Assembly (NCBI GenBank): GCA_947624085.1
Contig: CANQIK010000007.1
Coordinates: 1 to 46,796, forward strand
Length of the DNA: 46,796 nucleotides
Direction of reading: 5' to 3'
Origin: an uncultured Bacilli bacterium
GTDB taxonomy: Bacteria > Bacillota_I > Bacilli_A > RF39 > UBA660
The notes under the pieces are model-generated. The model saw nothing but the letters and a program-made list of their open reading frames with translations. It was not told where the DNA came from and ran no database searches. Both the position numbers and the translations under genes were made by a program. Position 1 is the first letter of the stretch. Each line of letters opens with the position of its first letter. Shown here one piece after another: positions 22,907 through 28,472 of the stretch.

Positions 22907-23959
22907 CTATTTTTTCTTTTTCTTATGTTCAAATAAAATATTAGTTTTAGCTACTATAATGATTAAAATAATCATTAAAACAATATAGATAGCGATAGCT
23001 ACTTTACTATTATCACCTAAAGCATAGAATATTGATACTAAAGAGAAAAGAATACTTATAAAGTAGATAATAAATAAGCTTATCCTAGGTGTAAATTTCA
23101 TTCTAAGAAGTTGATGATGTAAATGTTCTTTATCTGGTTGCCCTATACTTTGATGTTTAATAAGTCTTCTAAAAATAGCAAATAAAGTATCAAAAATAGG
23201 AATAGCAAGTATTAGCATAGGAACAATCAAAGAAGTAATAGTCGCCACCTTAAATCCTAATAAAGCTATAATAGAAATCATAAAGCCTAAAAAGGTGCTA
23301 CCACAGTCGCCCATAAACGTTTTAGCAGGAGGAAAATTATGAGTTAAAAAGCCAAGGGTTGAACCTAGCATAATCAAACATAAAATAACATCAAGGCCAG
23401 AAGTATTACCTAAAATAAAGGCAATAACTGATATTGTAGCAAAATAAATACTACTTACCCCGGCACATAAACCATCTAAGCCATCAATTAAATTAATTGC
23501 ATTAATTGCCGATACAATAAATAAAACCGATATTACCTCCCCAGCCCAAACTGGTAAATAAATATTAAGACCTAGTAAAGAAATATGTTGGAAAAATAAC
23601 CTGCCATAAAAAACAACAATGGAAGCCACCACTAAATGAACTAAAAATTTATATTTAGCTCGAAGAGGCTTAATATCATCTAATATGCCTAAGACTACTA
23701 AAATAAAAGAAGCTATTAAAATAGAAAGCATTTGCGTAGTTATTTCGCCATACATGACATAGCCAAACAAAAACCCACCATAAATGGCAATACCTCCGAG
23801 TCTGGGCATTGGATGTTTATGGATTTTTCGTTCATTAGGCATATCTAAAGCCCCAACATGAACGGCTAGTTTTTTGGATAGAAATACTAACGCAAAACTT
23901 ACGACATAAGTTACAATAAGTATTTCTAATATATTATGATTATTAACTACAAAATTCAT
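22907..23959 (-). CDS. tagO: Undecaprenyl-phosphate GlcNAc-1-phosphate transferase (TagO/WecA)
   Basis: This integral membrane enzyme starts wall-polymer synthesis by joining GlcNAc-1-phosphate to undecaprenyl phosphate. At 350 residues with about ten membrane segments it has the MraY-superfamily signatures: DMPNERKIHKHPMPRLGG at the N-terminus, NAINLIDGLDGLCAG, GDCGSTFLGF and the DKEHLHHQLL segment near the C-terminus that is characteristic of the GlcNAc-specific branch. It is the first gene of the locus, with a promoter at 23977-24006 and AGGGAG before the ATG. The neighbouring GT26 domain would use its product. The enzyme class is firm; the symbol tagO rather than wecA reflects Bacillota usage. 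Confidence 0.94.
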   Translation of the reverse strand: MNFVVNNHNILEILIVTYVVSFALVFLSKKLAVHVGALDMPNERKIHKHPMPRLGGIAIYGGFLFGYVMYGEITTQMLSILIASFILVVLGILDDIKPLRAKYKFLVHLVVASIVVFYGRLFFQHISLLGLNIYLPVWAGEVISVLFIVSAINAINLIDGLDGLCAGVSSIYFATISVIAFILGNTSGLDVILCLIMLGSTLGFLTHNFPPAKTFMGDCGSTFLGFMISIIALLGFKVATITSLIVPMLILAIPIFDTLFAIFRRLIKHQSIGQPDKEHLHHQLLRMKFTPRISLFIIYFISILFSLVSIFYALGDNSKVAIAIYIVLMIILIIIVAKTNILFEHKKKKK

Positions 23960-24784: not shown

Positions 24785-24804
24785 AAAAAAGAAGCCGAAG
24801 CTTC
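24784..24804 (-). terminator. Strong intrinsic terminator after the cohesin-like gene
   Basis: On the minus strand GAAGC-TTCG-GCTTC forms a hairpin with a stable UUCG loop followed by six T. It ends transcription coming from the cohesin/dockerin pair and lies right beside the stop of the convergent DUF3800 gene. Confidence 0.85.
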
Positions 24805-24918
24805 CTTAAACCTAACTGAGAAGGTGCTAAGCACTAAATAATTCATACATCAGTTATTGACCTGACGAAGCATTATCGCTTCCGGTAAAGAAAATATAAC
24901 ATAACACTCTATTAAGTG
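24805..24918 (-). other. Structured 3' region between convergent genes
   Basis: On the minus strand this stretch holds several hairpins: ACACT/AGTGT near 24903-24918, GGAAGC-GATAAT-GCTTC near 24869-24885, and an AACTGA...TCAGTT arm enclosing GTGC-TTA-GCAC near 24814-24857. They end in the terminator at 24784-24804. It could be a long 3' untranslated region or a separate small RNA. It did not match any riboswitch or housekeeping RNA I know. Confidence 0.4.
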
Positions 24919-26514
24919 TCAATCATGCTTTTTAGCTTTCTTTTCTTTTTTCTGCTTTTTACGGTTATGTTCATCTTCAAAAATATCATAAACTTCTTCT
25001 TCAATAGGCTCTTCTTTTGGCTCTGTTATTGTAATATCAGGCTCAATATTTACCTCTTTAGTTACTTCTTTTTCCTCTTGTATTTGAGGAGCATCCTCGA
25101 TAGGAGTATCTTTTTCTTGAGATTTTTGAGCACAATATGGACAAGTCTTTTCTTTAGCATTATATTCTTGATGACACTCAGGACATACTACTTTTTTCTT
25201 TTTTGTTTTAGTTAATTCCTTTTTATCTTCTTTTGGTTTACTATCAGTTTTTTTCGGTTTCTTATTTAATAAAGAAATAATAACAATGAAACTTAGAAGC
25301 GTTGTCCCCGCAAAAGCACAAGTTACATAAAATAGCATTTTTGTTTTCTCAGTGCTTTCCTTTTTTTCTTCTTTATCCAATTTCATAATAGTATTATCTT
25401 TAGTATCTACAGTATATAAGCCCTCTTCGTTTGTCTCAACATTAATAGCATAAATATACTTATAGCGATCCTCTGGAGCTTTTTGCAAACACTCGATACT
25501 AATATTATTTATTTTTAAGTTACCTTTTACATAACCTGATAAGGTTTCTTGCATTTCAAGAGGTCTAATCGTAATATTACCTAGATTTATTTCATAATAT
25601 TTTTCATATTTACCATCTTGATAAGTGGCCATGATTATTTTACCGTCATCATCTTTTAGACCAACCACGGTAATTTTCATAATATCACTATAATACGCTG
25701 GTATTTCAAACTCGCCAATATTTATTGTAGATTCTTTAAAACCTTTAGGAGAAGTTAAGTTATCTCTAATCTTAACAACGGTATATTTATCATTATCCAT
25801 TTTAATTTCAATAGGATTTTTATCAATGACCTCTACATTTAATTTATAAATTTTCTCACTACCATTTTGAGCTACAACATAAATTTCAAAAATATTATTG
25901 CCAGGTGAAACAGCTTGAGGTCCCGTTCCGCTTACTGAAGCAGTATTATCTTCAGGTGTAGCGGTAATATTAATTTCTTTTGTATCTTCAGAAACTTTAG
26001 CATTATACTCTAAAGTATCTTTATCAAACTCCGGATCAATTTCAGCCTCCTCAATTTTTAAAGAAGCTAAATTATTATTAGTCGATAAACTTGCTTGATA
26101 TTCATTATAAGTAATACTGTTTACAGTAACTGAACTAGAACTTAAGGTCATTTCATTTTCATCAAATCCTATAACTCCTGCTGAACCAACAGAAAATGTG
26201 CTAGAGCCTTTTGATACAGCTGTAAAAGTATAAGTATAAGTTTTAGTTTTCGTAGCATTATTTTCAGCAAAATCAACAATGTGAAGCGATTCTTTTGAAT
26301 CTATATTAAATACAGTACTATCATAATTTAAACCATATTCCCAAGTTCCTAAAGGCGATGAAGAAGAAATAGTTACATATATCGTCACACTATTACCAAT
26401 AACTACTTGAGAACTGGACGCTGATACTCTTATATTAGCAGTTGCCGCATGAGCAGTACCAGTGAATAATAATGACATAATTAATGCAAATAATATTTTT
26501 TTTACCCTTTTCAT
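24919..26514 (-). CDS. Membrane-anchored cohesin-like surface protein with cytoplasmic zinc ribbon
   Basis: The 531-residue protein begins with a signal peptide (about 1-24). Residues 26-134 resemble a cohesin domain (VVIGNSVTIYVTIS, WEYGLNYDSTVFN, YTFTAVSKGSSTFSV). Residues about 145-230 are a cadherin-like beta-sandwich (NNLASLKIEEAEIDPEFD, KDTLEYNAKV, SGTG). An unassigned region follows to about 390, a membrane segment at 393-416, a Lys-rich stretch, a zinc ribbon with C444, C447, C458 and C461, and a Glu/Lys-rich tail. The layout puts the cohesin-like part outside and the zinc ribbon inside. It lies 11 bases after a glucosaminidase gene whose product ends in a dockerin, so it is the likely docking site. 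Start follows AAGGAG. The cohesin call is moderate; the rest is clear. Confidence 0.75.
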   Translation of the reverse strand: MKRVKKILFALIMSLLFTGTAHAATANIRVSASSSQVVIGNSVTIYVTISSSSPLGTWEYGLNYDSTVFNIDSKESLHIVDFAENNATKTKTYTYTFTAVSKGSSTFSVGSAGVIGFDENEMTLSSSSVTVNSITYNEYQASLSTNNNLASLKIEEAEIDPEFDKDTLEYNAKVSEDTKEINITATPEDNTASVSGTGPQAVSPGNNIFEIYVVAQNGSEKIYKLNVEVIDKNPIEIKMDNDKYTVVKIRDNLTSPKGFKESTINIGEFEIPAYYSDIMKITVVGLKDDDGKIIMATYQDGKYEKYYEINLGNITIRPLEMQETLSGYVKGNLKINNISIECLQKAPEDRYKYIYAINVETNEEGLYTVDTKDNTIMKLDKEEKKESTEKTKMLFYVTCAFAGTTLLSFIVIISLLNKKPKKTDSKPKEDKKELTKTKKKKVVCPECHQEYNAKEKTCPYCAQKSQEKDTPIEDAPQIQEEKEVTKEVNIEPDITITEPKEEPIEEEVYDIFEDEHNRKKQKKEKKAKKHD

Positions 26515-26525
26515 TTTCTTTCTCC

Positions 26526-28472
26526 TTATTGAATTGTTATATATCCTAGAATATGTTTTTGAACTCTTAATAAATCTTTAATATTAACAATTCCATCTTG
26601 ATTGGTATCGGCGCCTTTGAAATAAGGTCCTGCTAAATCAGAATATCCTAAAATATATTTTTGAACTACTAATAAATCTTTTATATCAATATTACCATCG
26701 CCACTACAATCACCTTTAATAGAGATGTTAAGGGTTTTGGTATCATTACCATTTACAATTGTTATCGTATCACCAGTTGAAAGCGTTGTAGAATTTTTAG
26801 CATTTATTGTCACATTGGCAGTAGCAGACACCTTATTTACTTCATTTCGTAATTGATCAGGAGTTATACCTGCTGAATAAATTAGCATTTCACCAGATAT
26901 TGGTGCAGACATACTAGTTAAAATATCATCAACACTCATATCCATACCATCAGTTCTAATTACATTAACAGTATATTTTTGCACTTTTTGATTTTGCGCC
27001 GTTACTGATAACACAATTGGTGTTTTTTGACCGGTTAAGTTTATCGTTCCCGTACCGCTTAGTTTAGCATTCTTATTAATTATCGTTCCATCAATTTTAA
27101 CAGACTTAACTCCCTCAGCGACATAATAATTATATTCAAAGGTATCATGTTTAAAACCCGGAATTTCTTTTCCACCAATAGTAATACTCTTTAAATGATT
27201 GTTAGGATTACCATAGCTAGGCATTGGACTTGCTTGACTAGGCATATTAGCATATACTGGAATTACAAAGTCAAAGGCTGTATCTAAAAGATTATTAACG
27301 GCATAAGAATTGTAAGTAGGTACAGCTTCTGTAGCAGGTCCTTGGATATTAGTTTGATATTGATGAGTATATGTTGTGTAGTTCGAATAAGAAGATGTAT
27401 TAAACTTTTGAAAATATGTAGTATCTTGACCTTTACCAATATAAGTAGAAGCAATATAACTTGCTCCCCCATAAATAGATTTATCAAGAGTTGTCCACGG
27501 AGTTTGATAACCTTGATTTCCGGCAGCCCATTTAATACCATCAGCAGCTCCCGTGTATGCACCTATATTATAGGCATTATAAATATTTGCATAATTGCCA
27601 TAAGCTACGCCTTTAATTGAGTAGTTACTATAATTACCTGTTGTTTCAAGTTTTATTCTACTAGCAAGATAAATAGGACTAACATTACTTTGCCGACCAG
27701 CATCATAAATTACTGTACTTTTTTGTTTTATATCCGTACCATTTAAAATGCTATCTACGGTTTCTTGCTTTTGAGTTACACTATCAAATGATAATTTTTG
27801 AAAAATAAATATTTCCTTTTCATTAAAGAAATTACGTGGATCAAGGAAATAAGCTACAGCTTCATGACTAGCATTATACCAATTACTTCCTTCTTTTACG
27901 ATAAAAGTATCTGTTAAATAATCATAAGAAATATACTCAGTATCAAGGAACCCTTGCGTTTTTTCACTAGTAGATTGGATTAAAGCTTTGCGATCGTATT
28001 CTTGTTCGGTAATAGATTTATTCCAATCCAAATTATTAAAATCAGGGGTAAACGTCCAATTAGGATGAATCGCTTTTAAATCACATAAACCGCCTATATA
28101 GCTATCTGGAAAGCCCTTTCTTTGTAAATCCGTTTCACAATTTGCGGCTACAGTATCATCATAAACAACACGAGAAAATTCTTCGGCATAATTTGCACAA
28201 ACATAACCAACGTTATGACCACTATAATATACTTTATACCAACCTTGAGTACATAATAATGATGGCGAATATTTAGTTTCATCTACTAATTCATAAACTG
28301 AATTTTCGGTTATCGCGTCAATTAATGATCTTGAACTAGTAGTAGGTTCTTCTCTAAGTCTTACTCCCGAATAAGGGATAATAATCTTAACGACGGTTTT
28401 AGCATCGACATTTGTTAAGCCTAAAAAAAGGAAAAATGCTATAAAAGATAATATAAATAATTTACGTCTCAT
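26526..28472 (-). CDS. Secreted SH3 / beta-N-acetylglucosaminidase / dockerin protein
   Basis: The 648-residue secreted protein has a signal peptide (about 1-24), an SH3-like domain (about 28-95, VRLREEPTTSSRSL), and a glucosaminidase domain at roughly 140-400 with VSPIYLASRIKLETTG, whose Glu is the likely catalytic acid, and NIYNAYNIGA. A cadherin-like beta-sandwich follows (about 425-505, EYNYYVAEGVKSVKIDG, LSGTG). A type I dockerin fills 587-648, with two calcium-binding repeats, DCSGDGNIDIKDL and DTNQDGIVNIKDL. It should cut GlcNAc-MurNAc bonds in peptidoglycan, as in LytD/LytB-type autolysins. The dockerin replaces the choline- or wall-binding repeats usual for such enzymes. The adjacent cohesin-like membrane protein is the obvious anchor. 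Domain calls are strong; pairing is inferred. Confidence 0.9.
   Translation of the reverse strand: MRRKLFILSFIAFFLFLGLTNVDAKTVVKIIIPYSGVRLREEPTTSSRSLIDAITENSVYELVDETKYSPSLLCTQGWYKVYYSGHNVGYVCANYAEEFSRVVYDDTVAANCETDLQRKGFPDSYIGGLCDLKAIHPNWTFTPDFNNLDWNKSITEQEYDRKALIQSTSEKTQGFLDTEYISYDYLTDTFIVKEGSNWYNASHEAVAYFLDPRNFFNEKEIFIFQKLSFDSVTQKQETVDSILNGTDIKQKSTVIYDAGRQSNVSPIYLASRIKLETTGNYSNYSIKGVAYGNYANIYNAYNIGAYTGAADGIKWAAGNQGYQTPWTTLDKSIYGGASYIASTYIGKGQDTTYFQKFNTSSYSNYTTYTHQYQTNIQGPATEAVPTYNSYAVNNLLDTAFDFVIPVYANMPSQASPMPSYGNPNNHLKSITIGGKEIPGFKHDTFEYNYYVAEGVKSVKIDGTIINKNAKLSGTGTINLTGQKTPIVLSVTAQNQKVQKYTVNVIRTDGMDMSVDDILTSMSAPISGEMLIYSAGITPDQLRNEVNKVSATANVTINAKNSTTLSTGDTITIVNGNDTKTLNISIKGDCSGDGNIDIKDLLVVQKYILGYSDLAGPYFKGADTNQDGIVNIKDLLRVQKHILGYITIQ

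Follow-up and report, generated by a model that had tools for sequence, protein, structure and literature searches.

Two adjacent genes in a 46 796-nucleotide window (the whole stretch of DNA that was analysed, from an uncultured bacterium of the order RF39) encode a secreted glucosaminidase and a membrane-anchored protein, and we consider it highly probable (about 0.88) that a dockerin–cohesin plug between the two products holds this wall enzyme at the cell's own membrane. Physical binding of the dockerin to the cohesin is very likely in our judgement, and membrane tethering of the glucosaminidase only slightly less so; the enzyme more likely acts on the newly made wall of its own cell than on other cells, and a specific role in releasing strands or controlling their length is offered as a tentative proposal. 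Cohesin–dockerin binding is a textbook feature of cellulosomes. The gut bacteria considered here have small genomes, the one examined shows no trace of a cellulosome, and the conserved interaction apparently fastens a wall-cutting enzyme to its own cell. For this uncultured, thin-walled group, in which many classical wall hydrolases are predicted to have been lost (PMC10868615), the pair offers a concrete candidate for wall remodelling positioned at the membrane. A search of the open-access literature, with most subscription papers outside its coverage, found no description of a dockerin–cohesin/glucosaminidase pair.

The two open reading frames are separated by 11 nt, with the sequence AAGGAG preceding the start of the downstream anchor gene (Table 1). 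A terminator-like hairpin 3′ of the anchor gene is consistent with a two-gene operon. TagO is located directly downstream in only 11 of 64 loci and is not a conserved neighbour.

Table 1. Features of the glucosaminidase–anchor locus (positions in the window).
Feature	Positions	Strand	Basis
Glucosaminidase with C-terminal type I dockerin, secreted, SagB/autolysin-like, 648 aa	26526..28472	(-)	ORF; PDB autolysin/SagB matches; Dockerin_1
Predicted signal peptide of glucosaminidase, residues 1–24	28401..28472	(-)	Read from sequence
SH3_3 domain of glucosaminidase, residues 35–95	28188..28370	(-)	Pfam, E 3.8e-6
Catalytic region of glucosaminidase, about residues 113–411	27240..28136	(-)	PDB sequence matches
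Predicted catalytic Glu276 of glucosaminidase	27645-27647	(-)	Invariant in 185/185 homologues
Cadherin-like β-sandwich (PF12733) of glucosaminidase, residues 428–506	26955..27191	(-)	Pfam
Type I dockerin of glucosaminidase, residues 586–642, loops from D588 and D622	26547..26717	(-)	Dockerin_1, E 1.2e-10
Membrane anchor protein bearing cohesin, 531 aa	24919..26514	(-)	ORF
Cohesin domain of anchor, residues 26–137	26104..26439	(-)	Pfam Cohesin in orthologues; predicted fold
Cadherin-like β-sandwich (PF12733) of anchor, residues 149–228	25831..26070	(-)	Pfam, E 3.7e-11
Third ectodomain of anchor, about residues 233–385	25360..25818	(-)	Conserved in orthologues
Transmembrane helix of anchor, residues 393–416	25267..25338	(-)	Hydrophobic helix in sequence
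Zinc-ribbon-like CPEC..CPYC, predicted cytoplasmic tail of anchor, residues 444–461	25132..25185	(-)	Sequence
Terminator-like hairpin 3′ of anchor gene	24788..24807	(-)	Consensus scan only

The catalytic region of the glucosaminidase matches Autolysin (E = 4e-10), AtlA and SagB (6u0o_B; E = 6e-8) in the PDB, and the protein gives a match to the NCBIfam SagB model with an E value of 2.2e-12 that stays far below the cut-off score of that model. The Pfam Glucosaminidase family (PF01832) gave no match up to E = 1; in view of the solved SagB/AtlE relatives, we take this miss to reflect a limit of sensitivity and not an exclusion. From its kinship to solved autolysin glucosaminidases and its conserved catalytic glutamate, both judged from sequence, the enzyme counts as a GH73/SagB-like glucosaminidase. 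The cargo proteins at this position, whether homologous or analogous, contain no further hydrophobic helix past residue 80 (195 of 195) and are predicted to be soluble. The C-terminal domain scores above the Dockerin_1 cut-off and shows the hallmark of type I dockerins, two duplicated calcium-loop–helix repeats in which loop positions 1, 5 and 12 are acidic. The recognition positions 10, 11, 17 and 18 are occupied by I, K, Q and K in both repeats (Ile597, Lys598, Gln604 and Lys605 in repeat 1 and Ile631, Lys632, Gln638 and Lys639 in repeat 2). The predicted dockerin fold, modelled on the relative L040, superimposes on 8x39_A with a Z score of 12.8 and an r.m.s.d. of 1.2 over 65 residues.

The anchor begins with a signal peptide, and its transmembrane helix is followed by a zinc-ribbon-like, lysine-rich tail. 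A single transmembrane helix is found in 192 of 195 anchors and in none of the cargo proteins; the CxxC..CxxC motif of the tail is present in only two of the 195. The N-terminal domain by itself scores 23.5 bits against Pfam Cohesin (PF00963), just under the cut-off of 24.1, and the same model matches all 26 of 26 orthologous N-terminal domains (best E value 4.8e-10). Its predicted structure (pLDDT 92.3) is a jelly-roll sandwich of nine strands, as in cohesins. The best structural matches are cohesins, which make up most of the top 50 entries of a structure search (VIA), with a Z score of 12.6 for 2vo8 over 110 residues at 2.1 Å; this result rules out an unrelated Ig domain for the cohesin type at this locus. 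Missing Pfam matches had also raised the suspicion that the cohesin was swapped for an unrelated domain in divergent classes. For the classes inside the order, which the hhalign profile comparison covered (the outside-order domains L238–L249 being kept apart from it), this was dropped because their ∼95-residue domains align with the cohesin type over nearly the full length with probabilities of 94–98%. The third ectodomain has no convincing sequence match in Pfam or the PDB. The sequence-only reading had described a secreted glucosaminidase ending in a type I dockerin with two calcium repeats, followed 11 nt later by a signal-peptide protein with a cohesin-like N-terminal domain and a membrane anchor; the gene positions and these assignments all stand, with the glucosaminidase now placed in the SagB-like branch. 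The Cadherin-like sandwich that it had noted in both proteins is PF12733 in each, and the shared SGTG is the conserved motif of that domain.

The pairing itself had been proposed from adjacency alone and now draws on synteny, single-dockerin genomes, cargo replacement and co-divergence. A dockerin gene directly adjoins the anchor gene in 222 of 223 intact loci of relatives (30/30 and 78/78 in the first two sets of loci), with the gene order reversed in only two pairs (L118 and L135), and no dockerin gene adjoins the two anchors from which the N-terminal domain is missing. Where the glucosaminidase is replaced, the slot usually holds another dockerin-bearing peptidoglycan glycosidase (GH73 and, once, GH25); the glycosidases that fill it are unrelated and the dockerin stays. 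Within the order, the glucosaminidase was found in 162 and the anchor in 163 of 193 genomes; the pair is absent from about 30, and penicillin-binding transpeptidases are present in all 193, including those without the pair. In the relative G025 the anchor cohesin is kept and the adjoining glucosaminidase has extra SH3 domains and no dockerin, so the tether is dispensable there. The genome under study encodes two cohesins in two proteins and gives three dockerin matches, located in the glucosaminidase, in a papain-like protease and, as a weak match, within an M60 peptidase-like protein. The one other clear cohesin is that of protein C41 (E = 1.4e-13), to which the dockerin might bind instead, with the gene adjacency owing to other causes such as shared regulation. 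However, the C41 cohesin adjoins a dockerin protease of its own, the only dockerin of single-dockerin genomes adjoins the anchor in 56 of 57 cases and the co-divergence is specific to the dockerin and cohesin, which makes this alternative extremely unlikely.

Evolutionary distances between dockerins correlate with those between their partner cohesins (Spearman 0.77, partial correlation 0.71, 0 of 500 permutations, 184 pairs), compared with 0.26–0.32 for the dockerin and its own protein and 0.28–0.29 for the dockerin and the remainder of the anchor. Dockerin recognition-helix positions account for 47 of the 50 most strongly coupled pairs, against 9–22 for control domains. On the dockerin side the co-variation falls on the known recognition positions, and on the same ones in both repeats; positions 10, 11, 17 and 18 are identical between the two repeats in 89–99% of the dockerins (28–54% expected). 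The coupled cohesin positions are Leu55, Gly56, Thr57, Trp58, Tyr64 and Ile71. Residues 55–58 adjoin Glu59; the residue aligned with it in 2y3n, Gln37, makes contact with the dockerin in the crystal structure (PMC8063739). Only a stop codon, a short spacer and a signal peptide separate the two domains, and they might co-vary through DNA proximity and joint recombination without any contact. Equally close segments lack such co-variation, however (0.35 for the cohesin and its own adjacent Cadherin-like domain and 0.26 for the dockerin and the preceding ∼60 residues), and the couplings focus on the recognition positions of both repeats; we regard this explanation as very unlikely. The two reversed-order pairs are the sole direct control for it. 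The two genes of L040 share one frame, and an AlphaFold chain read through them, with one stop codon taken as Gly, gave confident domains (pLDDT 90.7) and no confident interface (pTM 0.59). The monomer protocol, the absence of calcium and the signal peptide lying between the domains each put this test at a disadvantage.

In the proposed mechanism, the products of both genes would form one complex, with a co-expressed single-pass anchor and a glucosaminidase exported in soluble form. The calcium-loaded C-terminal dockerin would dock on the cohesin of the anchor, and the enzyme would thereby be held noncovalently just outside the membrane on top of a two-domain stalk (the Cadherin-like domain and the third ectodomain). 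It would most likely cut peptidoglycan glycan strands near their site of synthesis and trim or free strands from the membrane, in a mode of working like that of the Staphylococcus aureus SagB–SpdC peptidoglycan release complex (6u0o), with assembly by a cohesin–dockerin plug. In that complex a sequence-related glucosaminidase is likewise held at the membrane by a membrane partner; SpdC, however, belongs to the CAAX protease family and is integral to the membrane, whereas the anchor is single-pass with an extracellular cohesin and has no such domain, which sets it apart from SpdC-type partners. A role of the tether as a sortase substitute was considered and ruled out; the genome gives four sortase matches, and sortases are present in 183 of 193 relatives.

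The pair shares with the type I pairs of cellulosomes (Clostridium cellulolyticum 2vn5/2vn6 and C. thermocellum 1ohz) the same two domains and folds, the two symmetric calcium repeats and the location of the co-varying residues at the recognition positions. Unlike in cellulosomes, each anchor has a single cohesin and a single enzyme, and the cargo is a wall-degrading enzyme or protease; the cellulosomal combination of a multi-cohesin scaffoldin with dockerin-bearing plant-polysaccharide enzymes was not found in this genome. Non-cellulosomal use is known from the C. perfringens cohesins (2vo8, 2jh2, NagJ) that match the anchor cohesin best in structure; those modules are carried by secreted glycoside hydrolases (GH33 and GH84), whereas here the cohesin is on a membrane anchor and is paired with a wall hydrolase. 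Wall hydrolases with dockerins, including a lysozyme, are also attributed to the Ruminococcus champanellensis cellulosome in work cited in PMC6403190; as described there, they join a multi-enzyme cellulosome, in contrast to the dedicated two-gene, one-to-one tether proposed here.

The same physical complex is expected if the tether restrains or stores the autolysin against loss and self-lysis, with release by calcium or proteolysis, instead of positioning it on newly made strands. In known systems cohesin–dockerin binding is calcium dependent, which would suit such restraint, and the several SH3 domains of the G025 enzyme that has lost its dockerin suggest that retention in the wall matters. 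Nevertheless, SH3 domains alone could retain the enzyme, the glucosaminidase already has one and the attachment of the anchor to the membrane suggests that the enzyme works there, so that restraint seems rather unlikely as the main role. The enzyme could also be a surface-displayed muralytic weapon against other bacteria or a food-gathering enzyme that scavenges gut muropeptides. Some peptidoglycan-precursor steps are predicted to be missing from the order, which may depend on scavenged muropeptides (PMC10868615), and proteases are displayed here by the same principle. Its placement near the membrane beneath the cell's own wall, the near-universal conservation in the group and the kinship to the housekeeping SagB argue against this use, which we judge improbable.

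Across the order and its same-class relatives, it is possible, at slightly less than even odds, that two-gene dockerin–cohesin cassettes serve as a general mounting of enzymes on the membrane, with the glucosaminidase pair as the strand-release complex. Specificity would then have switched several times (QK, RQ, KN and LR classes) through concerted change of both partners, and the symmetry of the dockerin would be selected despite the single cohesin per anchor. PMC8063739 calls the biological role of dual binding elusive and gives, as the consensus view, that it eases crowding on large scaffolds; here, the strict retention of two-fold symmetry with one enzyme and one cohesin makes scaffold crowding an unlikely reason. 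The more than 180 naturally co-varying pairs could serve directly for mapping or selecting orthogonal binding partners.

The source genome (1.22 Mb, 94% complete) carries the pair on contig C7, which is the window in its entirety. In the secreted protein, a signal peptide is followed by SH3_3, catalytic and Cadherin-like domains, and the C-terminus is a Dockerin_1 domain (E = 1.2e-10). The closest solved relatives of the catalytic domain are autolysin E, AtlA and SagB. The membrane protein (the anchor) begins with a signal peptide; cohesin-like, Cadherin-like and conserved unknown domains then precede a transmembrane helix and a cytoplasmic tail. The sequence-only reading had described the genes accurately, except that the Pfam Glucosaminidase model does not match this SagB-like branch. 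A zinc-ribbon-like CPEC..CPYC motif (25132–25185) in the cytoplasmic tail is found in only two of 195 anchors. A Glycosyl transferase family 4 gene (TagO/WecA-like; 22907–23959) lies near the pair, and 11 of 64 relatives have a member of this family directly downstream of their anchor.

Features of the dockerin–cohesin gene pair
Feature	Position	Strand	Remarks
Secreted glucosaminidase	26526–28472	minus	648 residues
Membrane anchor	24919–26514	minus	531 residues; 11 nt downstream of glucosaminidase gene; AAGGAG ribosome site
Transmembrane helix of anchor	residues 393–416		sole transmembrane helix
Terminator-like hairpin	24807–24788		after anchor gene

The arrangement is strongly conserved. Of 193 genomes sampled across the order, 163 encode the anchor, 162 the glucosaminidase and 161 a dockerin. 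In all of the first 30 loci, and in all 78 public GTDB loci that extend upstream, the anchor's immediate upstream neighbour ends in a dockerin; over all loci fetched, a dockerin gene lies directly beside the anchor in 222 of the 223 with complete flanks. The loci reduce to 199 non-redundant pairs owing to overlap of the two collections, and contig ends truncate five others. The sole exception (genome G025, locus L119) retains the cohesin and has an adjoining glucosaminidase with several N-terminal SH3 domains and no dockerin, a natural loss of the dockerin. In genomes with one detectable dockerin of known location and an anchor, the dockerin adjoins the anchor in 56 of 57 cases.

The window's copy of the anchor N-terminal domain is borderline against Pfam Cohesin (23.5 bits; cut-off 24.1), which is matched by all 26 orthologous domains (best E = 4.8e-10). 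A profile of these 26 domains compared with PDB sequences placed cohesins among its top matches, weakly and beside unrelated proteins. The AlphaFold2 model (72 rows) has a mean pLDDT of 92.3, and C. perfringens and clostridial cohesins rank first in VIA-align (Z = 12.6, 110 residues, 2.1 Å). Other immunoglobulin-like folds rank below them (translocon TRAP subunit, Z = 11.3; the rest ≤9.5), except for one multi-domain galactosidase with Z = 12.1 but an r.m.s.d. of 16 Å. Cohesins were again retrieved with the domain of a relative, modeled independently (Z = 13.7).

Distance matrices were compared over 184 pairs for six segments (in DNA order: catalytic, pre-dockerin stretch, dockerin, cohesin, Cadherin-like and third domain). 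Dockerin and cohesin, which reside on different proteins, show a correlation of 0.77 (partial 0.71; 0/500 permutations), and every other segment pair gives 0.18–0.35. Linkage alone does not explain the former value, because even segments adjoining within one gene stay in the lower range. The correlation persists, more weakly, within the canonical cohesin class (139 pairs; 0.59, partial 0.42). When positions were scored by mutual information with average-product correction, recognition-helix positions held 47 of the top 50 dockerin–cohesin pairs, compared with 9 for the third domain, 12 for the catalytic, 18 for the pre-dockerin and 22 for the Cadherin-like segment. The top dockerin positions are twofold-related twins (Q604/Q638, L600/L634, K605/K639, L601/L635 and I597/I631); in each repeat, positions 10 and 11 are established specificity determinants (PMC8063739). 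The top cohesin positions, L55–W58, lie next to E59; the residue aligned with E59 in 2y3n, Gln37, touches the dockerin in that crystal structure. Canonical cohesins pair with Gln at dockerin position 17 (QK, QR or QM at positions 17/18 in 133 of 141), whereas divergent cohesins show QK or QR in none of 54 pairs and mainly KN, RQ or LR. The divergent domains are shorter and missed by Pfam, yet align with the cohesin type in profile comparison.

The catalytic Glu is invariant (185/185). None of 195 cargo proteins has a hydrophobic helix beyond the signal peptide, and 192 of 195 anchors have one. In the simplest reading, a membrane-held receptor would catch a soluble enzyme at a location resembling that of SagB; SagB is positioned and modulated by SpdC for release of nascent glycan (PMC12272431). 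We infer that the dockerin binds the cohesin and so tethers the enzyme to the membrane, perhaps for strand release. A fused dockerin–cohesin AlphaFold chain from a relative (L040), modeled with no calcium and with a signal peptide between the domains, gave a pTM of 0.59 and an interface that is not confident. The pair may work like SagB–SpdC, from which it differs in its partner protein; it does not fit the definition of a cellulosome. Dockerin-bearing wall hydrolases are on record as parts of a Ruminococcus cellulosome (PMC6403190), and none outside it were found in the open-access literature. The parts are known; judged by that literature, their combination appears to be new.

A search for further dockerins in the source genome identified a second adjacent pair on contig C41 (L006:2063-7872), in which the gene for a papain-like protease with a dockerin overlaps that of a cohesin protein carrying three Cadherin-like domains. 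A weak dockerin-like stretch occurs in the N-terminal part of an M60 peptidase-like protein (1739 residues; contig C2, L007:2903-8122), beside which no cohesin was found.

The cargo of the 199 pairs is a SagB-like glucosaminidase in 166, a circularly permuted form in 21 and other in 12. The permuted form, seen in one branch (including L120, L121, L122, L123 and L125–L128), has the stretch matching residues 322–411 of the window's glucosaminidase (P0002) ahead of that matching 113–318 and retains the dockerin. Among the remaining 12, the three members of one group that were scanned have a different glucosaminidase, of family PF01832, and four further sequences look like the same protein. In other families of the class, outside the sampled order, nine scanned loci with dockerin neighbours encode PF01832 glucosaminidases (six clear, one weak) and, in one case each, a GH25 muramidase and a SagB-like enzyme. 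At L240 the muramidase with its dockerin adjoins an anchor; its genome (G261) has a GH73 pair as well (L239). Pfam did not recognize a cohesin in the N-terminal domain of most of these out-of-order anchors, and two of the anchors there, which lack this domain, have no dockerin neighbour. Partners of more distant anchors are M6 or papain-like proteases. The cassette is thus modular, with the window's branch specialized in wall glycosidases. Gene order is reversed at L118 (G145) and L135 (G181), where a dockerin-bearing M6 peptidase (immune inhibitor A type) comes after the anchor.
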